Source: Guyparkeria sp. SCN-R1
GTDB lineage: Bacteria > Pseudomonadota > Gammaproteobacteria > Halothiobacillales > Halothiobacillaceae
Direction: 5' to 3'
Length of the DNA: 64,000 nucleotides
Assembly: GCF_003932495.1 (NCBI RefSeq)
Contig: NZ_QZMT01000010.1
Span: 1-64,000, forward strand
The notes below the pieces were generated by a model. That model ran no database searches and was not told the origin of the DNA. It worked only from the letters and a program-made list of their open reading frames with translations. Position numbers and translations under genes: made by a program. How positions within the stretch are numbered: the first letter of the stretch is position 1; each line of letters begins with the position of its first letter. Of this stretch, positions 21,391-36,551 are shown piece after piece.

Positions 21391-22005
21391 ATGATCGAAC
21401 TTCGGACGTACGTCTTTATCGACTCGCTCCAGCCCCAGTTGGCGGAGTACTTGGCGACGGCGTCCCAGGGCTTTTTGCCGGTCCCGGGCGATGCCTGCTT
21501 GTGGGTCGAGGTCTCGCCGGGGATGGCCGTCCACCGACTGACCGACATCGCGCTCAAGGCCTCCAGCGTGCGCCTGGCGCAGCAGGTAGTCGAGCGGGCC
21601 TTCGGCTCGATGGTCATCCACCACCGCGTGCAGAGCGACGTGGTCCAGGCCGGCAACACGGTGCTCGAGTACCTCGGCCGCGAGCAGACCGAGCGCCAGC
21701 CCTGCGAGATCGCCTGGCAGGAGATCATCCGCGGCATGACGCCGGACCACACGGTACTGATCAACCGCCAGAACCGCCGCGGCAACATGATCCTGCCCGA
21801 CCAGAGCATGTTCATCCTCGAGGTCGAGCCGGCCGGTTACGTCGTCTACGCCGCCAACCAGGCGGAAAAGGCGGCCAATATCTCGCTGATCGACGTACGG
21901 GCCGTCGGCAAGTACGGCCGCCTGACGATTGCCGGCACCGAGGGCAACGTCGACGAGGCCGCCCGCGCGGCCATCGCCGCGGTCAAGAACCCCGCCATGA
22001 CCTAG
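21391..22005 (+). CDS. csoS1D: carboxysome shell protein CsoS1D (tandem BMC domain)
   Basis: The 204-aa product contains two fused BMC domains and forms pseudohexameric trimers that stack face to face with a gated pore. Diagnostic stretches are [60 protein letters not shown] and [26 protein letters not shown]. The VVERAFGS block (Glu68-Arg69) matches the Glu-Arg pair that gates the pore in the Prochlorococcus protein. The long N-terminal extension of cyanobacterial CsoS1D is absent. No other cso or cbb gene is in the window, so this is a satellite copy, followed 12 bases later by a NUDIX gene. I call it by recalled sequence resemblance. Confidence 0.9.
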
Positions 22006-22017
22006 GGGCGCCGACTC

Positions 22018-22569
22018 ATGCATCGCTGCGACCTGCTTGACCAACTCGCCCGCTACGACACGCGCTACCTCGACGAGGCCGCCTTCGTCCAGCGCGCGCG
22101 GCAGTTCGTTGCCACGCACCCCGACACCTTCTACCGCGAGCATCTGCCGGCGCACGTCTCGGCGTCCACCTGGGTGGTCAATCCCTCGCGTACCGCGGTG
22201 CTCCTGATGCACCACAAGAAGCTCGACTGCTGGCTGCAGCCCGGCGGGCATGCCGACGGCGACACCGACATGCGCGCCGTGGCCTTCAAGGAGTGCGTCG
22301 AGGAGACGGGTGTATCGCCCGAGCATGTCCGGCTGGTCGGTGACGAGATCTTCGATGTCGACATCCACGCCACCCAGGAGCCGCACCCGGACGCGATGCC
22401 CCACCACCACATCGATATCCGTTACCTGGTGGAAGTGGATGACAACGTCCCCGCGCCGGGCAATGAAGAATCCTTCGAGGTGCGCTGGGTGCCCGTCTCC
22501 ATGGTCACGCGGCTGAACAACAGCCGCTCGACCCTGCGCATGGTCGACAAGACACGCAAGATGCGCTGA
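22018..22569 (+). CDS. NUDIX hydrolase
   Basis: The 183-aa product has a helical N-terminus, then a NUDIX domain. The Nudix box reads GGHADGDTDMRAVAFKECVEETGV: it has the KECVEETG helix (Lys for the usual Arg), but Thr stands where the first box Glu is usual. A His-rich PDAMPHHHIDIRYLV strand and ESFEVRWVPVSM follow. It likely hydrolyses a nucleoside diphosphate derivative. It follows csoS1D by 12 bases and shares its terminator, so the two are one operon. A housekeeping or metabolite-repair role for carboxysome substrates is possible but not shown. Confidence 0.9.
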   Translation: MHRCDLLDQLARYDTRYLDEAAFVQRARQFVATHPDTFYREHLPAHVSASTWVVNPSRTAVLLMHHKKLDCWLQPGGHADGDTDMRAVAFKECVEETGVSPEHVRLVGDEIFDVDIHATQEPHPDAMPHHHIDIRYLVEVDDNVPAPGNEESFEVRWVPVSMVTRLNNSRSTLRMVDKTRKMR

Positions 22570-22669: not shown

Positions 22670-22900
22670 TTAGCTTGCCTTAGCGAGGCCGCGAGCGTGG
22701 TCCACCGCGTCGTCGAACACCGTGGTCTCGTAGAGGGTCTCCATGTCGCCCGGCACCGTCATGCGTCCGTTGGTCGATCCCTTGCGGGGTCGCCGTGCGG
22801 GCCGCTGCACCAGATACATGCCGTCGGTGGCCTGTTCAACCAGGATGTTGCCGTTGCGGTAGAAACCGCGTTCCGCGTCCATCTTCTCTGCCATGAGCAT
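22670..22900 (-). CDS. small conserved-looking protein of unknown function (76 aa)
   Basis: I do not recognise this family. The start is either ATG 22900 or ATG 22894, both near AAAGGTG; a longer reading has no ribosome site. The product MLMAEKMDAERGFYRNGNIL is followed by a strand-rich stretch VEQATDGMYLVQRPARRPRKG and a helix FDDAVDHARGLAKAS. It looks like a small beta-beta-alpha domain. It faces the csoS1D-NUDIX operon and shares its bidirectional terminator. Confidence 0.6.
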   Translation of the reverse strand: MLMAEKMDAERGFYRNGNILVEQATDGMYLVQRPARRPRKGSTNGRMTVPGDMETLYETTVFDDAVDHARGLAKAS

Positions 22901-23291
22901 CACACCTTTGTCGTGATCAGGCCGTACCGCAAAAGGCGGCCGACCGTGGTGAGTGACAGCCCCGGAACACTCCGAGGCGCCCACTGGTCCACTGTAGGCC
23001 ACTCGTCACCGCTGTGTCATGGAAAAATATCGAAGCAAACCGAGCCCCGATTCTCGCAGCATTCGTTCTCGACGAACGACGGCCACAGGCGGGCACAGGC
23101 CCCGGGCCGTGATTTCGAAGTTGTCGAACAAGGTATGTATGCGGCCCACCATTGATCGGTGCTGCCGAAAATGACATCGACGCCCGGAATCCCTACAATG
23201 GCGGGCTTCTTGAGGGCTTTCCCGCTGAACTTCCAGACATCATTTCTGGCAGGATTTCCCGGCCCCATCGAATCGTGACGGAGACCGATCA
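22901..23291. other. intergenic region upstream of the iota-CA-like gene
   Basis: 391 bases without a supported gene. It carries the ACGGAGA ribosome site at about 23278 for the downstream gene, and an AT-richer patch around 23015-23060. No RNA gene or terminator recognised. Confidence 0.4.
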
Positions 23292-23852
23292 GTGACCAGA
23301 AGCAACCGCCCGCGCATCAGCGGCACCCGCTTTCTCAGCGCCGACGATGCGCCGAACTCACGCCTGAGCCTGGGCTCGTCCCACCGCGATGCCTACCGCT
23401 CAGTCACCGGCACCGGCAGCCATTACGACGCGATCGACGTGCCCGCCAACGAGAGCTGCGTGATCTGCGCCCCGGCGACGCGCCGCCTGGCCGAAGACCT
23501 GTTCAACCAGTGGAACGCCGCCCTGCAGACCGGTGACGCCGCCAAGGTCACGGCACTGTACGCCGAGGACGGCGTGCTGCTGCCCACTGTCTCCAATGTG
23601 CCGCGCACCAGCCACGCCGAAATCCAGGACTACTTCGAGCACTTCCTGGAGAAGGACCCGGTCGGCACCATCAACACGCGCAACGTGAAGCTTGGCTGCA
23701 ACAAGCTGACCGACGCCGGCACCTACACCTTTCGCGTCACCGACGGGGACGAGACCCGCGACGTCCCGGCCCGCTACACCTTCGTCTACGAGAACCGCGA
23801 CGGCCGCTGGCTGATCGTGCATCACCACTCCTCGATGATGCCGACCGACTGA
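23292..23852 (+). CDS. iota-class carbonic anhydrase-like protein (COG4337) with unusual N-terminal extension
   Basis: The 186-aa product starts with GTG after ACGGAGA. Residues about 58-186 form a SnoaL/CaMKII-association-like domain matching bacterial iota carbonic anhydrases, often annotated SgcJ/EcaC: FNQWNAALQTGDAAKVTALYAEDGVLLPTVSN, then R-TSHAEIQDYFEHFL, ARYTFVYE and the signature HHHSSMMP (177-184). Such enzymes hydrate CO2 and can be metal-free. Known bacterial members usually carry a Sec signal; this one has instead a 50-residue basic, polar N-terminus with ISGT (9-12) and VTGT (38-41), resembling CsoS2 shell-binding motifs. With csoS1D 1.3 kb upstream, a carboxysomal location is a reasonable inference. 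A perfect terminator follows. Confidence 0.8.
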   Translation: MTRSNRPRISGTRFLSADDAPNSRLSLGSSHRDAYRSVTGTGSHYDAIDVPANESCVICAPATRRLAEDLFNQWNAALQTGDAAKVTALYAEDGVLLPTVSNVPRTSHAEIQDYFEHFLEKDPVGTINTRNVKLGCNKLTDAGTYTFRVTDGDETRDVPARYTFVYENRDGRWLIVHHHSSMMPTD

Positions 23853-23878: not shown

Positions 23879-23907
23879 AAACGCCCGCCAATTTGGCGGG
23901 CGTTTTT
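23879..23907 (+). terminator. Rho-independent terminator
   Basis: AAAACGCCCGCCAA pairs with TTGGCGGGCGTTTT, with TTTTTT on the plus strand. The symmetrical A-tract makes it bidirectional between the iota-CA-like and DUF808 genes. Confidence 0.93.
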
Positions 23908-23939
23908 TCAGGTCGCAACGAACCGGTTGGCCAAGCGCC

Positions 23940-28863: not shown

Positions 28864-30003
28864 ATGATGTGGAAAAAACTGCTATTGGCTCTGACCACCC
28901 TGTCCACGGCGGTCGTTGCCGCTGCGCAGGAGGAACCAAGCGCCTTCAACATGACCCGCGGGGTCACCGAAGTCAGCCGCGACGCCTACGACATGCACAT
29001 GCTGCTGTTCTGGGTTTGCGTGGCGATCGGTGTCGGCGTGTTCGGCGTCATGATCTGGTCGCTTATCCGGCATCGGCGCTCTCGCGGAGCGAAGGCGGCC
29101 AAGTTCTCGGAAAACACCGTGGTCGAGGTGGTCTGGACCGCCATCCCGGTACTGATCCTCGTGGCCGTGGCCGTTCCTGCCACGGCCGTTTTGTTGAAGA
29201 CCAACTCACCATCGCCAGAACCGGACGTCATCGTCGATGTACACGGCTCCCAGTGGAAATGGGAGTACGTCTATCCCGACGAGGACATCTCCTTCTTCAG
29301 CAACCTCTCCTCCAGCAGCCGTGATGCCAGCCAGCTGAACGCCGAGAAATCACCGGCCGATGCCCCCAATTACCTTGTCGATGTCGACAACCCGCTGGTC
29401 GTCCCGGCGGGCAAGGACGTTCGGTTGCGCATCACCAGTGACGACGTGATCCACTCCTGGTGGGTACCGCAGCTGGGCTTCAAGAGAGACGCGGTCCCCG
29501 GCCAGTTCAACAACGCCGACATACGTATTGACGAACCCGGCACCTACCGCGGCCAGTGCGCCGAACTCTGCGGTTCGGGGCATGCCTACATGCCCGTTGT
29601 CGTCGAGGCGGTAACGCCAGAGGCTTACAACGAATGGCTGGCCCAGAAGAAGCAGGCTGCAGCCGCGGAGGCCGAAGAGGCTTCCGGCCCATGGAACCGC
29701 GAGGTGGCCATGGCGCAAGGCAAGAAGATCTACGACTCGGCCTGCGCCTCCTGCCACCAGGCCAACGGCAAGGGCATCGAGGGCACCTTCCCCGCGCTGG
29801 AAGGCGGCAAGATCACCACCGGCCCTGTCGAGGGACACCTGAAGATCGTGATCCACGGCAGCGAGAAAAACCCGGTCATGCAGGCCTACGGCGACCAGCT
29901 GAGCGATCGCGAGATCGCGGCCGTGGTCACCTACGAGCGCAATGCCTGGAGCAATGACACCGGTGACCTGGTCACCCCGGAAGCAGTGGAGGCGGCACGA
30001 TGA
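28864..30003 (+). CDS. coxB: cytochrome c oxidase subunit II with fused cytochrome c (caa3 type)
   Basis: The 379-aa product has AAGGAGGGCCGCG before its ATG. Order: signal peptide (1-21), two membrane helices (about 45-67 and 90-113), a cupredoxin CuA domain with CAELCGSGHAYM (Cys232, Cys236, His240), then a C-terminal c-type cytochrome with CASCH (294-298) and a distal Met candidate in NPVMQAYGDQLSD. It takes electrons from a soluble donor through haem c and CuA to subunit I. The fused cytochrome marks a caa3-like oxidase. It overlaps coxA by 4 bases. First gene of the operon. Confidence 0.97.
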   Translation: MMWKKLLLALTTLSTAVVAAAQEEPSAFNMTRGVTEVSRDAYDMHMLLFWVCVAIGVGVFGVMIWSLIRHRRSRGAKAAKFSENTVVEVVWTAIPVLILVAVAVPATAVLLKTNSPSPEPDVIVDVHGSQWKWEYVYPDEDISFFSNLSSSSRDASQLNAEKSPADAPNYLVDVDNPLVVPAGKDVRLRITSDDVIHSWWVPQLGFKRDAVPGQFNNADIRIDEPGTYRGQCAELCGSGHAYMPVVVEAVTPEAYNEWLAQKKQAAAAEAEEASGPWNREVAMAQGKKIYDSACASCHQANGKGIEGTFPALEGGKITTGPVEGHLKIVIHGSEKNPVMQAYGDQLSDREIAAVVTYERNAWSNDTGDLVTPEAVEAAR

Positions 30004-31631
30004 ATCAAACAGCGGATTCTGTAGTCGATCAGATCGAACACGAGCACAGCCATCACGGGCCGAGAAAAGGCCCGCTGCGCTGGCTGCTGACCGTCAATCA
30101 CAAGGACGTCGGCACCATGTACCTGGTGCTTGCCCTGGTGGCGCTGCTCGTCGGCGGCGTCATGGCGCTGGTCATCCGGGCCGAGTTGTTCCAGCCGGGG
30201 CTGCAACTGACCCAGCCGCAGTTCTTCAACTCCCTGACCACCATGCACGGCCTGACCATGATCTTCCTGGCGATTATGCCGGGGCTGACGGGGCTGGCCA
30301 ACTGGATGGTGCCGTTGCAGGTCGGCGCGGACGACATGTACTGGCCGCGGGTCAATAACTGGGCCTTCTGGATGCTGCCGCCGGCGGCGATCATGCTGTG
30401 GATCGGCTTTTTCATGCCCCAGGGCGCGCCCGGCGGCGGCTGGACCCTGTACGCGCCGCTCTCGTCGACCTACGCCCCGCCGTCGATCGACTGGGTGATC
30501 ATGGCAATCCACATCATGGGCATCTCCTCGATCCTCGGGGCACTCAACATCATCCTCACGATCCTGAAGATGCGCGCCAAGGGGATGAGACTCTGGGACA
30601 TGCCGCTGTTCACGTGGACCTGGCTGATCACCGGCTTTCTTCTGCTGCTGGCGATGCCGACACTGGCCATCGCGGTCACCATGCTCCTGACCGATCGGCA
30701 CCTGGGCACCGCCTTCTTCGATGCCACGAACGGCGGCGACCCGGTGCTGTTCCAGCACATCTTCTGGTTCTTCGGTCACCCCGAGGTCTACATCATGATC
30801 CTGCCGGCCTTCGGCATCGTCTCGGAGATCGTGCCGGCCTTCAGCCGCAAGCCCCTGTTCGGGCGCACCTCGATGATCTGGGCCGTGATCGCCATCACCT
30901 TCCTGTCGGCGATCGTCTGGGCGCACCACATGTTCACCGTGGGCCTGCCGGTCGAGGCACAAGTGCTGTTCATGTACACCACGATGCTGATCGCTATTCC
31001 CACCGGCATCAAGATATTCAACTGGGTCGCCACCATGTGGCGCGGGTCGATGACGTTCGAGGCGCCGATGCTCTGGGCGCTCGCCTTCATCTTCCTGTTC
31101 ACGATCGGCGGCTTTTCCGGACTGATGCTGGCCGACGTGCCGGCCGACTACCAGTACCACGACACCTACTTTGTCGTGGCGCACTTGCACTACGTGGTGG
31201 TGACCGGCTCCCTGTTCGCCATCATCGCCGGGGTCTATTTCTGGCTGCCCAAGTGGACCGGCCACATGTACAACGAGAAGCTCAGCCAGTGGCACTTCTG
31301 GTTGTCGGCCATCTCGGTCAACGTCACGTTCTTCCCGATGCACTTCGCCGGGCTGGCCGGCATGCCTCGCCGGATTCCTGACTACCCGTTGCAGTTCATG
31401 GACTTCAACATGATCTCGACCGTGGGGGCGTTTGTCTTCGGCTTTTCCCAGCTGCTGTTCATCTGGCTGGTAATCCAGACGATCCGTGGCGGCAAGAAGG
31501 CGGGCGACCGCCCCTGGGATGGTGCAAAGGGCCTGGAATGGACCCTGTCCTCTCCGCCGCCGTACCACACGTTCACCGAACCACCGTCTCGCCAGACGAT
31601 TCATGACGAAGGACCGCACGGCTACCACTGA
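30000..31631 (+). CDS. coxA: cytochrome c oxidase subunit I
   Basis: The product is 543 aa with twelve membrane helices. It binds haem a, haem a3 and CuB and reduces O2 to water while pumping protons. Visible are TTMHGLTMIF (haem a His), the WIFGHP-like FFGHPEVYIMILPAFG (CuB His and Tyr crosslink), WAHHMFTVG (CuB His pair), HDTYFVVAHLHYVV (haem ligands) and the ending FTEPPS. Length is that of a plain subunit I, not a subunit I-III fusion. No coxC follows. Confidence 0.98.
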   Translation: MNQTADSVVDQIEHEHSHHGPRKGPLRWLLTVNHKDVGTMYLVLALVALLVGGVMALVIRAELFQPGLQLTQPQFFNSLTTMHGLTMIFLAIMPGLTGLANWMVPLQVGADDMYWPRVNNWAFWMLPPAAIMLWIGFFMPQGAPGGGWTLYAPLSSTYAPPSIDWVIMAIHIMGISSILGALNIILTILKMRAKGMRLWDMPLFTWTWLITGFLLLLAMPTLAIAVTMLLTDRHLGTAFFDATNGGDPVLFQHIFWFFGHPEVYIMILPAFGIVSEIVPAFSRKPLFGRTSMIWAVIAITFLSAIVWAHHMFTVGLPVEAQVLFMYTTMLIAIPTGIKIFNWVATMWRGSMTFEAPMLWALAFIFLFTIGGFSGLMLADVPADYQYHDTYFVVAHLHYVVVTGSLFAIIAGVYFWLPKWTGHMYNEKLSQWHFWLSAISVNVTFFPMHFAGLAGMPRRIPDYPLQFMDFNMISTVGAFVFGFSQLLFIWLVIQTIRGGKKAGDRPWDGAKGLEWTLSSPPPYHTFTEPPSRQTIHDEGPHGYH

Positions 31632-31727
31632 GGTGAACGTGAGACGACTCGGCCGCAGCGCGCAATGAACGGAATCTCGTCGCCAGGGAAGGACGCGCGC
31701 GGCAGCACGACAAGTCGAGGGGGGAAA

Positions 31728-32522
31728 ATGGCAACGGCCAGGGACAACCGAACGGCTGACCTCACCGAAGGGGCTGCATCGGCGAAGGGCACCACCCCCG
31801 GCGGGCATCGATTCCGCCCTGCCCTTGTGCAAAGCCTCGCGACGCTGGTCCTGCTACCGGTCTTTGTCGGGCTGGGTGTCTGGCAGGTACAGCGGGCGGC
31901 GGAAAAGCAGCATCTGCTCGAAGCCGAGTCGGCGGCGACGCAAGCCTCGCCGGTGCCGATCGGATCACTCGGCCCCACCAACGTGCCATTGCACGTCCGG
32001 GCCAGCGGCCGCTACGACGAGCACCTGTTCCTGCTGGACAACCGGGTACGGAATCGCCGCGCGGGCTACGAGGTGTTGGCGCCGTTGCGCATCACGGACG
32101 ACGAGGCGGTACTGGTCAACCTGGGCTGGATAGCGCAAGGCGAAAGCCGCGGGCAACTGCCCACGGTCGGGGCGCCAACCGGAACGGTGCAGGTTACCGG
32201 TCTGGCCATGACGCCCCAGCCACCACCGTTCGAACTGTCCGATCGCGAGACCTTCGCCGCCGGCTGGCCCAAGGTGGTACAGACGGCTGCACCGGGGACG
32301 CTGGAAAAGGAATTGGGCTACCGGTTGCGGCCGGTCGTGCTTTATCCCGACGGCTCCGAGGTCGCGGCACACAAGGTCGAGGTCATGCATGAGTTCGGCC
32401 CGTCGCGGCATCACGCCTACGCGGCGCAGTGGTTCGGATTCGCGGTGGTACTGGTGATTGTGTACCTGTGGCACGGCCTGCACCGGGGCAAACAAGGGAG
32501 AAACGCAAATTGGACGCAGTAA
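31728..32522 (+). CDS. SURF1 family cytochrome oxidase assembly protein
   Basis: I start at 31728 (GAGGGGGGAAA upstream) rather than 31665. The 264-aa product has two membrane helices, one near the N-terminus (LATLVLLPVFVGLGVWQVQRAAEK) and one at the C-terminus (WFGFAVVLVIVYLWHGL), around a periplasmic domain. SURF1 marks are GLGVWQVQRAAEK, the RNRRAGYEVLAPL strand and VLVNLGWIAQG. It helps insert haem a into subunit I. Its stop overlaps the next start (TAATG). Confidence 0.93.
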   Translation: MATARDNRTADLTEGAASAKGTTPGGHRFRPALVQSLATLVLLPVFVGLGVWQVQRAAEKQHLLEAESAATQASPVPIGSLGPTNVPLHVRASGRYDEHLFLLDNRVRNRRAGYEVLAPLRITDDEAVLVNLGWIAQGESRGQLPTVGAPTGTVQVTGLAMTPQPPPFELSDRETFAAGWPKVVQTAAPGTLEKELGYRLRPVVLYPDGSEVAAHKVEVMHEFGPSRHHAYAAQWFGFAVVLVIVYLWHGLHRGKQGRNANWTQ

Positions 32523-33082
32523 TGACGAATGCCAATCGACGGCAATGGATCATTCTTCTGAGCCTGGCGGTGATCTTCATCCTGCCGCTGGCCGCTTCGT
32601 GGACCATGTACACCCTCCAGCCGTTCGAGAAACGGGGCGGGCTCGAACACGGGGAGTTGATCACCCCCGTCGAGAAGGTGCCGGTGGCAGGGCTGAGAAC
32701 GCTCGACGATGAGCCCGTCGACGCCAGCCTTTTCCAGGAAAAATGGACCTTGCTCTATCACGTGCCCGCCGGCGAGGACCAGGCCGGCTGCGACGCGGAT
32801 TGCCGCGCGCTGATGGACACCCTCCGCCGGGTTCGCCTGGCGCAGGACGAAGGGATGCGTGCCGTGCAACGGGTCCTGCTGGAGCCGGCAGGCACTGGCC
32901 GACCCGCGGATTTCGACCCGGGCTTGCAGGTGCTCGAAAGCAACCAGTGGGCGTTGGCACGCGGGTCCGTCTATATCGTCGATCGACAGGGTTACCTGGT
33001 GTTGCGCTACGACGCCGGGTTCGATCCGCAGGGACTGCTGAAGGACCTGGAGCGCCTGTTGCGACTGGCCGGGGAGGGTTAA
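32522..33082 (+). CDS. Sco-like thioredoxin-fold membrane protein of the oxidase operon
   Basis: The 186-aa product has one N-terminal membrane anchor (WIILLSLAVIFILPLAASWTM) and a periplasmic thioredoxin-like domain. It carries a CxxxC pair (GCDADCRALM), as in Sco copper proteins but without the flanking Pro, and ends with YIVDRQGYLVLRYDAGFDPQGLLKDLERLL, like a peroxiredoxin/Sco C-terminus. No Sco-type third ligand His is evident. This small protein is commonly found between surf1 and ctaA in oxidase operons. Copper or thiol handling for CuA assembly is inference. Confidence 0.85.
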   Translation: MTNANRRQWIILLSLAVIFILPLAASWTMYTLQPFEKRGGLEHGELITPVEKVPVAGLRTLDDEPVDASLFQEKWTLLYHVPAGEDQAGCDADCRALMDTLRRVRLAQDEGMRAVQRVLLEPAGTGRPADFDPGLQVLESNQWALARGSVYIVDRQGYLVLRYDAGFDPQGLLKDLERLLRLAGEG

Positions 33083-33086
33083 CGGG

Positions 33087-34139
33087 ATGAACCTCAACTC
33101 GGCAAAGCAACGTATGAAAAGCACGGGTTCCGGCCGCGTCTACCGTCGCCTGACCTACCTGGCCACGGTGCTGGCCCTGGTGGTGGTCGTGCTCGGCGCC
33201 TACGTGCGCCTGACCGATGCCGGCCTGGGCTGCCCGGACTGGCCGGGCTGCTACGGCCATCTGACGGTCAGTTCGGCCCAGGCCAATGAAAGCCAGGTCA
33301 ACGCCCTCTACCCCGACCAGCCATTGGAGGCCGGCAAGGCCCTCAACGAAATGGTGCACCGCTATGCCGCCGGTACCCTCGGCCTGCTGATCGTGATGCT
33401 GGTGGCGATCGGCTGGTGGTACAAGCGCCATCGGGCCCTCTTGTCCACCCTCGCCGCGCTGGTCGTGTTCCAGGCCCTGCTGGGCATGTGGACCGTGACC
33501 ATGCTGCTCAAGCCCGTGGTGGTAACCGCCCACCTGTTGGGCGGCATGGCCGTGCTATCCATGCTCTGGTGGATATGGCTCGACAACCGTCACCGATGTC
33601 TGCGTGAGGCCGGGGCAACACCGCTGCCATCATCGACGGTAAGCCCCGGCATGCGCTGGTTCGCCGCAATCGGCTTGGTGCTGCTGATTGGCCAGATCTT
33701 CCTTGGCGGCTGGACCTCGACCAATTACGCCGGGCTGGCCTGCAGCGGCTTCCCCACCTGCAACGGCCAGTGGTGGCCGGATGCAGACTACGGCTCCGTC
33801 TTCGGTCTGCACGAAGTGAACGACCTGCATGGCCCCGGCCTGATCGCCACCCAGTGGCTTCATCGACTGGGGGCGCTGGTCGTGTTCATCACCCTGCTGG
33901 CATTGACGATCAAGGCAAGCCCAGTGGCGCCGCGAGTGGCCGTGGCCATCGGCACCCTGCTGGGGCTGCAGATATCCATCGGCGTCGCCAATGTCCTGTT
34001 CGGCCTGCCCCTGGTGATGGCCGACGCCCACAACGCGGTCGCCGCGCTACTGCTGCTGGCGGTCCTCGCGCTCAATCACCACCTCAATCATCCGCTGACC
34101 CCCGCGATGGGTCAGGCACCGAAGGGAGTGTGCACATGA
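33087..34139 (+). CDS. ctaA: haem A synthase (COX15/CtaA)
   Basis: The product is 350 aa with about eight membrane helices. It hydroxylates haem O to haem A. Motifs: YVRLTDAGLGCPDWPGCYGHL, a first conserved His loop NEMVHRYAAGTLGLL, WTVTMLLKPVVVTAHLLGG, CSGFPTCNGQWWPDADYG, and NDLHGPGLIATQWLHRLGALVVF. It overlaps ctaB by 4 bases (ATGA), so haem O synthesis and conversion are translationally coupled. Confidence 0.96.
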   Translation: MNLNSAKQRMKSTGSGRVYRRLTYLATVLALVVVVLGAYVRLTDAGLGCPDWPGCYGHLTVSSAQANESQVNALYPDQPLEAGKALNEMVHRYAAGTLGLLIVMLVAIGWWYKRHRALLSTLAALVVFQALLGMWTVTMLLKPVVVTAHLLGGMAVLSMLWWIWLDNRHRCLREAGATPLPSSTVSPGMRWFAAIGLVLLIGQIFLGGWTSTNYAGLACSGFPTCNGQWWPDADYGSVFGLHEVNDLHGPGLIATQWLHRLGALVVFITLLALTIKASPVAPRVAVAIGTLLGLQISIGVANVLFGLPLVMADAHNAVAALLLLAVLALNHHLNHPLTPAMGQAPKGVCT

Positions 34140-35062
34140 ACGTTCGAGCCCAGACGGTTGCCGCGATCGGCGCCTTCCCGTGGCACAGCTATGTCAAGCT
34201 GTGCAAGCCCAAGGTCGTCTCGCTGGTGGTGTTCACGGCACTGGTTGCCATGCTCCTGGCCGCGCCGCCGGGAGATCTGCCCTGGACGCTGCTCCTGGCC
34301 GGCACCGCCGGCATCACCCTCGCCGGTTTCTCGGCGGCGGCGTTCAACCATATCGCCGACCGAGAGATCGACGCGGAAATGGGACGAACCAAGGCCCGGC
34401 CGCTACCCACCGGCGACATCTCGAGAAGCGCAGCGACCATCTTCGCCAGCCTGCTCGGCACGGCGTCGCTGACCCTGCTGTGGTTCGTGGTCAACCCGCT
34501 CACCGCCGTGCTGACCCTGTTCACCCTGATCGGCTACGCCGTGATCTACACCCGCTATCTCAAGTGGATCGGGCCGCAGAACATCGTGCTGGGCGGGGCC
34601 TCGGGCGCGGCGCCGGCCCTGCTGGGCTGGACCGCCGTCACCGGCCAGGTCGGCTGGGAGGCCATCACCCTGTTCCTGATCATCTTCGTCTGGACGCCGC
34701 CGCATTTCTGGCCGCTGGCGATCGCCCGGCGCGAGGAGTATGCCGCCGCCAAGGTGCCGATGATGCCGGTCACCAACGGCGTGGCCTACACCAAGCGTCA
34801 AACCCTGTACTACGCGATCGCCCTGCTGCCCGTCAGCCTGCTGCCGGTGCTGGTGGGCATGAGCGGCCCGGTGTACCTGGTTGGTGCCACGCTGCTGGGT
34901 GGCAGTTTCATCCTGCGTGCCTGGCGGCTGCTGCACGTCGACAGCGACCGGCAGGCCATGAAGCTGTTCGGTTTCTCGATCACCTACCTGACCGCGCTGT
35001 TTGCCCTGATGCTGGCCGATCACTACCTGCCGCTCGGCTCTCTGCCGACAGTAATCGGCTAG
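34136..35062 (+). CDS. ctaB: protohaem IX farnesyltransferase (haem O synthase)
   Basis: The 308-aa product is a UbiA-type prenyltransferase that adds a farnesyl group to haem B. Marks: LCKPKVVSLVVFTALVAMLL, FNHIADREIDAEMGRTKARPL (the NxxxDxxxD/RTKARPLP motif), IYTRYLKWIGPQNIVLGGASGAAP, and WTPPHFWPLAIARREEYAAAKVPMMPV. It has eight or nine membrane helices. It sits between ctaA and the CtaG-type assembly gene. Confidence 0.97.
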   Translation: MNVRAQTVAAIGAFPWHSYVKLCKPKVVSLVVFTALVAMLLAAPPGDLPWTLLLAGTAGITLAGFSAAAFNHIADREIDAEMGRTKARPLPTGDISRSAATIFASLLGTASLTLLWFVVNPLTAVLTLFTLIGYAVIYTRYLKWIGPQNIVLGGASGAAPALLGWTAVTGQVGWEAITLFLIIFVWTPPHFWPLAIARREEYAAAKVPMMPVTNGVAYTKRQTLYYAIALLPVSLLPVLVGMSGPVYLVGATLLGGSFILRAWRLLHVDSDRQAMKLFGFSITYLTALFALMLADHYLPLGSLPTVIG

Positions 35063-35088
35063 GTTGACCGGCCGACGGGGAGGGAATC

Positions 35089-35979
35089 ATGACGCTACCC
35101 ACCCTGCTTGAGCAGACTGTCGCCTTCCTCGTGCCGTACGAGTTCTCGCCGACGGTACTGCTGGTCTGTGCCGCTGCCGCCCTGCTCTACCAGCGGGGCT
35201 GGAGCCGGGCGGGCGGCGGTATTGGCCAGGCGGTGATGTTCTGGATCGGGCTCGTGGGCATGTATGTCGTCCTGCAGACCCAGTTCGACTACTACGGCCA
35301 GCACAGCTTCTTCATGCATCGCTTGCAGCACCTGGTGCTGCACCACGTCGCCCCGTTCCTGATCGCCGTCTCGGCGCCGGCCGCGATTCTCGGGGCCGGC
35401 CTGCCCGAGCCCATCCATCGTTACGTGGTCGCGCCGCTGCGACGCAACTGGCTGCTGCGCCGCCTGTATGCCGCGATCCAGGAGCCGCTGGTGGCGGGCG
35501 CGATCTTCGTCGGCCTGATCTACTTCTGGCTGATCCCGTCGGTGCACTTCTACGCCATGCTCAACGTGCCGCTCTACAACACGATGAACTGGGGCATGGC
35601 GATCGACGGGCTGCTGTTCTGGTGGATGATCTTCAACCTGCGCGCGCCGGGCGCGAGCGACATGCGCCACTACGGCTACCGCCTGCTGGTGCTGTTCCTG
35701 GTGATGTTTCCGCAGATCGCCCTCGGCGCCTACATCGCCCTGAGTGACCACGACCTGTTCGGCATCTACGCGGCTTGCGGCCGCATCCTGCCGATCACAC
35801 CCCTGACGGACCAGGCGATTGGCGGCCTGCTCACCTGGGTTCCCGCGGCGATGATGAGCGTCGTCGGTGGACTGGTGCTGGTGCATCGATGGAACCGCCG
35901 GAGCCGTCACGTACAGAAACCCGTTTCCCCCCACCCTTGGCTGTGCGAGGTGAGATCGTGTCGCGATCCAAACATCTGA
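35089..35979 (+). CDS. ctaG: cytochrome c oxidase assembly factor CtaG (caa3_CtaG family)
   Basis: The 296-aa, seven-helix membrane protein starts after GGGAGGGAATC. It has the caa3_CtaG pattern: FFMHRLQHLVLHHVAPFLIAVSAPA, IQEPLVAGAIFVGLIYFWLIPSVHFYAML, AIDGLLFWWMIFNLR and IALSDHDLFGIYAACGRILPITPLTDQAIGGLL. It is unrelated to the Cox11-type CtaG and occurs with caa3 oxidases, where it supports copper loading. Its C-terminus overlaps the sco gene by 22 bases. Confidence 0.94.
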   Translation: MTLPTLLEQTVAFLVPYEFSPTVLLVCAAAALLYQRGWSRAGGGIGQAVMFWIGLVGMYVVLQTQFDYYGQHSFFMHRLQHLVLHHVAPFLIAVSAPAAILGAGLPEPIHRYVVAPLRRNWLLRRLYAAIQEPLVAGAIFVGLIYFWLIPSVHFYAMLNVPLYNTMNWGMAIDGLLFWWMIFNLRAPGASDMRHYGYRLLVLFLVMFPQIALGAYIALSDHDLFGIYAACGRILPITPLTDQAIGGLLTWVPAAMMSVVGGLVLVHRWNRRSRHVQKPVSPHPWLCEVRSCRDPNI

Positions 35980-36551
35980 TCCTTTGGCTACTGCCCCTGT
36001 TCCTGCTCGGTTGCAGCGGGGAGGCATCCAACCAGTGGCACGGCCACAACATCACCGGCGTCATGCCGGACCTCGAGTTCGAACTGACCGACCACACCGG
36101 CCAACCGGTCACCGCCGAAGACTACCGCGGCAAGGTCACCATGATGTTCTTCGGCTACACCAGCTGCCAGCACGTCTGCCCGGTCGCCCTCAGCAAGCTG
36201 GCCGCCGCAACCCGGAAGCTGGGCGACCAGGCCGACAAGGTCGAGATCCTGTTCGTCGCGGTCGACCCCAAGCGCGACAAGAAGGTGCTCGACGACTACG
36301 TCACCGAATTCACCCCCGACCTCGTCGGCCTGACCGGCACCCAGAAGCAACTCAAAGCCGTGGCCAAGCGTTACCGCGTTGCCTTCAGCTACGAAGAGCC
36401 GCGTGAGGACGGCTTTTACATCGTCAATCACAGCGGCGCGGTATTCGTCTTCGGCCCGCAGGGAAAGGTCCGCCTGCTGATCGACGAGCAGTCCAGGACC
36501 GCCAATATCACCGAGGATCTCCGGCGCCTGATCGAGCAATCGTCCGGTTGA
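35958..36551 (+). CDS. SCO1/SenC family copper chaperone lipoprotein
   Basis: The start is GTG 35958 with GAGGTGA upstream; the longer frame would overlap too much of ctaG. The 197-aa product has a lipobox (LFLLGC, Cys16). Its thioredoxin fold has copper ligands CQHVC (Cys70, Cys74) in FFGYTSCQHVCPVAL and a later His in YIVNHSGAVFVF. It delivers copper to, or reduces, the CuA site of CoxB in the periplasm. Last gene of the oxidase operon. Confidence 0.95.
   Translation: MSRSKHLILWLLPLFLLGCSGEASNQWHGHNITGVMPDLEFELTDHTGQPVTAEDYRGKVTMMFFGYTSCQHVCPVALSKLAAATRKLGDQADKVEILFVAVDPKRDKKVLDDYVTEFTPDLVGLTGTQKQLKAVAKRYRVAFSYEEPREDGFYIVNHSGAVFVFGPQGKVRLLIDEQSRTANITEDLRRLIEQSSG

Follow-up and report, generated by a model that had tools for sequence, protein, structure and literature searches.

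A probable carboxysomal iota-class carbonic anhydrase of Guyparkeria sp. SCN-R1 carries a conserved CsoS2-like N-terminal extension

A 64,000-nucleotide stretch of the Guyparkeria sp. SCN-R1 genome (contig NZ_QZMT01000010.1, positions 1 to 64,000, here called the window) encodes an apparent iota-class carbonic anhydrase (iota-CA) whose N terminus resembles parts of the carboxysome protein CsoS2, and raises the question of where this enzyme works and how it gets there. A carboxysomal iota-CA has already been published for Thiomicrospira, where, according to the papers that cite the work, it replaces CsoSCA (Wieschollek 2024 AEM 90:e0107524, cited in PMC12628692, PMC12918739, and PMC12646314). 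The route by which an iota-CA enters carboxysomes is not addressed in the literature examined, and a CsoS2-like extension on an iota-CA finds no mention there; the primary Wieschollek 2024 paper lies outside that literature.

The gene encodes an iota-class carbonic anhydrase without a signal peptide

The ORF (23292–23852, forward strand) encodes 186 amino acids from a GTG start codon, a start common to the Guyparkeria and Thioalkalivibrio orthologues, with GGAGA located approximately 7 nt upstream. A promoter-like site at 23171–23199 (10/12 matches) and a GC-rich hairpin with a T tail at ∼23880–23910, 3′ of the gene, are consensus matches only, the hairpin coming from direct reading and being unlisted by the terminator scan. 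The catalytic domain spans residues 61–186 (23472–23849, forward strand) and has an NTF2-like assignment, with Pfam CaMKII_AD matching residues 69–184 (E = 8e-23) and an HHSS motif at the C terminus. The closest solved structure is PDB ID 3H51, both by sequence (E = 1.8e-39) and by the fold of the predicted model (E = 2e-17), and 3H51 is itself an apparent iota-CA (PMC8132391). Activity of the cyanobacterial iota-CA all2909 requires Thr106, Tyr124, His197, and Ser199 (PMC8132391); the putative catalytic residues T99, Y114, H179, and S181 of the Guyparkeria protein, matched to these four by motif rather than by superposition on all2909, are invariant in 19/19 aligned proteins. By sequence the protein is an iota-class carbonic anhydrase, with predicted CO2 hydration activity.

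Secreted bacterial iota-CAs of the Burkholderia/Pseudomonas/Xanthomonas type, which include PDB ID 3H51, share the same catalytic domain at ∼40 to 60% identity. They differ from the Guyparkeria enzyme at the N terminus: most carry a signal peptide by inspection and none carries a CsoS2-like extension, whereas inspection of the 186-residue protein reveals no signal peptide.

The N-terminal extension carries two conserved motifs

Residues 1–58 (23292–23465, forward strand) form a polar extension that is predicted to be disordered and is conserved only in the carboxysomal clade; in the predicted model, residues 1–55 have pLDDT values of <50 nearly throughout. The extension holds two motifs, ISGT at residues 9–12 (23316–23327, forward strand; consensus [IV][ST]G[TS]x[FG]I[DEN]) and VTGT at residues 38–41 (23403–23414, forward strand; [VI][TS]G in orthologues), which are spaced 29 residues apart. 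Across non-redundant orthologue rows, motif 1 retains [IV][ST]G[TS] in 16/16 and motif 2 retains [VI][TS]G in 15/16; the positions are fixed, and motif 1 has Ser more often than Thr. Between the motifs, S26 and R32 are invariant in the same 16 rows. Such a pair is rare: among 432 other proteins encoded in loci of this kind, only 1 has two (I/V)(T/S)G motifs within its first 60 residues. The earlier note, written from the DNA alone, had read this protein as a catalytic-type domain marked by LLPTVSN and HHHSSMMP behind a polar N terminus with ISGT and VTGT in place of a signal peptide; each of these features is borne out (LLPTVSN at residues 96–102, HHHSSMMP at 177–184), and the motifs are conserved among orthologues, as its reading needed.

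A scan of GTDB genomes returned 31 loci with the extension and one Pseudomonas protein without it. Among 40 orthologue rows (37 distinct), the extension lies at fixed positions relative to the catalytic domain; motif 1 is found in all extended proteins and motif 2 in nearly all, again at fixed distances from the domain, and the extension is absent from 9/9 signal-peptide or short relatives in the same alignment. In a tree built from the catalytic domain only, the extended proteins form one clade (support 100/98) with other iota-CAs outside. The Thiomicrospira members, which have 55 to 57% identity to the Guyparkeria iota-CA, fall inside this clade, and like them the Guyparkeria protein has no signal peptide. 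Two rows of the clade are labeled as non-extended. One, a second iota-CA copy in a Thiomicrospira-type locus (L127), keeps motif 1, but its motif 2 reads VTR, without the Gly; the other, from Thioalkalivibrio thiocyanoxidans, is a tandem paralogue with a signal peptide and the sole clade member that has not kept the extension. Conservation and co-occurrence of the extended enzymes thus count as one clade, not as independent events. Among the strong hits in a 399-genome phylum sample there is no extended iota-CA outside Gammaproteobacteria, and every match begins after motif 1, except for the Guyparkeria iota-CA itself.

The Thioalkalivibrio thiocyanoxidans ARh2 locus (L044:9938–11100) presents tandem iota-CAs, the first with the extension and the second with a signal peptide, a natural swap of address labels.

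The extension resembles the shell-binding part of CsoS2

CsoS2 binds the shell through [IV]TG/VTG motifs (PMC10484944, PMC11365436). These contact His79 of CsoS1A and recur about every 8 residues in CsoS2-C (PMC10484944), and in the M-repeats VTG together with a Tyr is required for CsoS2 function (PMC11365436). His79 is kept in the CsoS1 proteins of Guyparkeria sp. SCN-R1. A profile of the extension scored 24.3 against the CsoS2 profile, versus 12.2 ± 2.3 (maximum 21.3) for 400 column shuffles, 0/400 being as good; in the comparison across profiles, CsoS2 gave z = 5.7 and 16 other carboxysome or neighbor profiles all gave z < 2. The match comes from the middle and C-terminal, shell-binding part of CsoS2 and spans only 11 columns around motif 1, where the best hhalign match is VTGTpYxGxE and ISGTxF pairs with VTGTxY, the third motif of the M-repeat. 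The CsoS2-like nature proposed in the earlier note is thus supported by the conserved motifs together with a specific profile match to the CsoS2 M/C region.

The likeness has limits. As in the CsoS2 M and C repeats, (I/V)(T/S)G motifs lie within a disordered chain; unlike the closely spaced CsoS2 repeats, with one motif about every 8 residues, the extension has two motifs 29 residues apart, is fused to an enzyme, and lacks the Rubisco-binding N-terminal repeats. A by-eye likeness to the CsoS2 C-terminal peptide, ITGTSG...S...R in the Thiomicrospira types against ITGSSG...TYSGGARG, found no support (hhalign score 9.6). Kinship with the CsoSCA N terminus (10.2 versus 8.2 ± 1.3 for shuffles, maximum 12.0) or with the Rubisco-binding N-terminal repeats of CsoS2 (z = −2.0) was likewise rejected, with no profile similarity to either.

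Extended iota-CAs are linked to carboxysome genes and mostly coexist with CsoSCA

The Guyparkeria sp. SCN-R1 genome (2.42 Mb, 68 contigs; nearest named relative found, Guyparkeria hydrothermalis R3, with an iota-CA protein 98% identical) carries its iota-CA on contig C10; its cso operon, which is complete, lies on contig C4. The operon comprises cbbL, cbbS, csoS2, csoSCA, csoS4A, csoS4B, and three csoS1 genes, along with a bacterioferritin-like gene, acRAF, parA, a cbbO-like gene, and dabB/dabA. Its CsoSCA aligns with that of Halothiobacillus neapolitanus over the whole catalytic region, with the zinc ligands Cys173, His242, and Cys253 retained, so the idea that CsoSCA is missing here was rejected. 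Within the window, the iota-CA lies a short way downstream of csoS1D (21391–22005, forward strand), which encodes a 204-residue tandem-BMC carboxysome shell protein (Pfam BMC, E = 1.4e-8; NCBIfam CcmP model, E = 1.4e-68, below the model cut-off), with a Nudix hydrolase gene (22018–22569, forward strand; Pfam NUDIX, E = 4e-14) between them.

Orthologues elsewhere are found at the cso operon. Where loci are long enough, the iota-CA of Thioalkalivibrio, Methylonatrum, and Ectothiorhodospiraceae lies 3′ of the operon, ∼1.1 to 1.5 kb past the cbbO-like gene. Guyparkeria and Halothiobacillus-type loci mostly have it beside csoS1D and Nudix; the csoS1D-Nudix-iota-CA order is the same in loci L035 and L036, the Nudix is divergent in a Halothiobacillus-type MAG (L051), and csoS1D adjoins iota-CA in L051 and L127 too. 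A Thiomicrospira-type genome without CsoSCA (G053) has two iota-CAs flanking csoS1D (L127:5340–7824, reverse strand) ∼7 kb past the cso genes, by SulP and Sbt-like transporters, the same neighborhood as that of Thiomicrospira pelophila, whose carboxysome locus has SulP, an Sbt-like transporter, and iota-CA nearby (PMC12628692). In Thiomicrospira sp. WB1, the iota-CA is outside the main cso operon.

The genomes with an extended enzyme encode CsoS2 in 29/31 cases, CsoSCA in 29/31, and both in 29/31, the two exceptions being MAGs; the Pseudomonas control genome has neither. In a class survey of 369 genomes, the extended enzyme occurs in 8/72 CsoS2-positive and 1/297 CsoS2-negative genomes (Fisher p = 1e-5; the counts stem from a single clade and do not represent independent events), the lone CsoS2-negative genome being a 1.1 Mb MAG; none of the surveyed genomes with secreted-type enzymes is CsoS2-positive. 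CsoSCA is absent from four CsoS2-positive genomes: in two of them the csoS2 match is close to the end of a contig, and the remaining two, G053 and G117, carry the extended enzyme. The earlier note had tied its proposal to carboxysome genes in the genome, to linkage of homologues with cso loci, and to a check for csoSCA; the genes are there, Thioalkalivibrio and Methylonatrum provide the linkage, and the check found csoSCA. Its wording that the enzyme might supplement or replace CsoSCA divides by lineage: in the Guyparkeria sp. SCN-R1 genome, where CsoSCA is intact, it supplements, and replacement is a feature of Thiomicrospira-type genomes, not of the clade.

Two loci gave further observations. 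L051:11225–18391 has two csoS1D copies and DabA/DabB-like genes near the iota-CA. At L127:14022–14798 (reverse strand), in the genome without CsoSCA, a 258-residue ORF takes the place of csoSCA, with csoS2 and csoS4A on either side; it is probably csoSX, a gene with weak homology to csoSCA and without the catalytic residues (PMC12646314).

A proposed role for the extension

Cso linkage and CsoS2 co-occurrence support the carboxysome membership that the earlier note inferred, and from its sequence the protein is very probably a carboxysomal iota-CA, orthologous to the Thiomicrospira enzyme. It differs from the latter in being an addition to CsoSCA and in its place beside csoS1D on a contig other than that of the cso operon. 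With CsoSCA, a beta-class enzyme, it shares a presumed role and an N-terminal tail, whereas the folds are unrelated and the CsoSCA tail, which binds Rubisco, has no similarity to that of the iota-CA.

The conserved CsoS2-like tail suggests a route of entry. As it has no signal peptide, the iota-CA would stay in the cytosol and then be captured into the growing alpha-carboxysome. The two (I/V)(S/T)G sites of the tail may imitate the CsoS2 M/C repeats and bind CsoS1 hexamers on their inner face, at the sites where CsoS2 [IV]TG contacts CsoS1A His79. Since the catalytic domain probably dimerizes, a single enzyme would display four or more weak sites, which would suffice for multivalent recruitment. 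Once in the carboxysome, the enzyme would supply Rubisco with CO2 made from bicarbonate, alongside CsoSCA. We think it probable, judging from motifs and profiles, that the tail docks the enzyme to the shell in this way. Against docking are the strong multivalency of CsoS2 fragments, set beside a tail with two sites; the 29-residue spacing, the 11-column match, and the weak alignment with the C-terminal peptide; and the absence of linkage to the main cso operon in the Guyparkeria genome.

The main rival to shell docking is a carboxysomal iota-CA whose tail binds Rubisco or CsoS2 instead of shell hexamers, the (I/V)(S/T)G likeness being secondary. Residues 1–50 of CsoSCA do bind Rubisco (PMC12918739) and the invariant S26...R32 segment is unexplained by the CsoS2 match, but the rejected comparisons with the CsoSCA N terminus and the CsoS2 N-terminal repeats speak against a Rubisco binder, and we consider this rival unlikely. 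Less likely still is a free cytosolic enzyme, with the extension serving stability or oligomerization and only an indirect carboxysome link. The position of the gene outside the main cso operon in Guyparkeria and Thiomicrospira sp. WB1 would suit it; however, a cytosolic carbonic anhydrase would short-circuit the CO2-concentrating mechanism and dissipate the bicarbonate pool (PMC10880623), the orthologous enzyme was identified in Thiomicrospira carboxysomes (PMC12628692), and linkage to cso genes or csoS1D is strong in other genomes. That the protein is some other SnoaL/NTF2-like enzyme is very improbable: ketosteroid isomerases and SgcJ have the same fold, and TIGR02246 is the top NCBIfam model, but the iota-CA-like 3H51 is closest in both sequence and fold, the four residues on which iota-CA activity depends do not vary, and identity to the Thiomicrospira orthologues is 55 to 57%.

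Returning to shell docking, what appears to be new is the CsoS2-like tail as a probable targeting signal, together with widespread coexistence with intact CsoSCA. We lean slightly toward a fuller account, in which one of the enzymes packaged in the alpha-carboxysome came to bear a shell-docking tail of the CsoS2 type, a natural encapsulation peptide that does not depend on Rubisco. In this account the tail would have arisen a single time, when the carboxysomal iota-CA clade originated, and would give carboxysomes already equipped with CsoSCA a second, possibly metal-free carbonic anhydrase. A 2026 review describes the carboxysomal iota-CA as metal-free (PMC13159521), and adaptation to alkaline, metal-poor conditions has been suggested (PMC12918739); such adaptation might explain the second enzyme. 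Should the tail prove to be a shell-docking peptide, alpha-carboxysomes would have a short, natural encapsulation tag, and the CsoS2 binding code would serve cargo as well as scaffold. Two unrelated carbonic anhydrases would then share one compartment in many alkaliphilic sulfur oxidizers, so that partial redundancy, an adaptation to pH or metals, and the subsequent loss of CsoSCA by Thiomicrospira could be tested directly.

Other genes of the window

The Nudix gene (22018–22569, forward strand) adjoins csoS1D and iota-CA in several genomes. A small ORF at 22670–23002 (reverse strand), with no Pfam match, is kept beside iota-CA in Guyparkeria and Halothiobacillus-type loci (L035, L036, and L131). 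Further downstream, 28864–36551 (forward strand) is likely a cytochrome c oxidase cluster, judged from translations only, with coxB, coxA, and SURF1-, CtaA-, CtaB-, and SCO-like ORFs.
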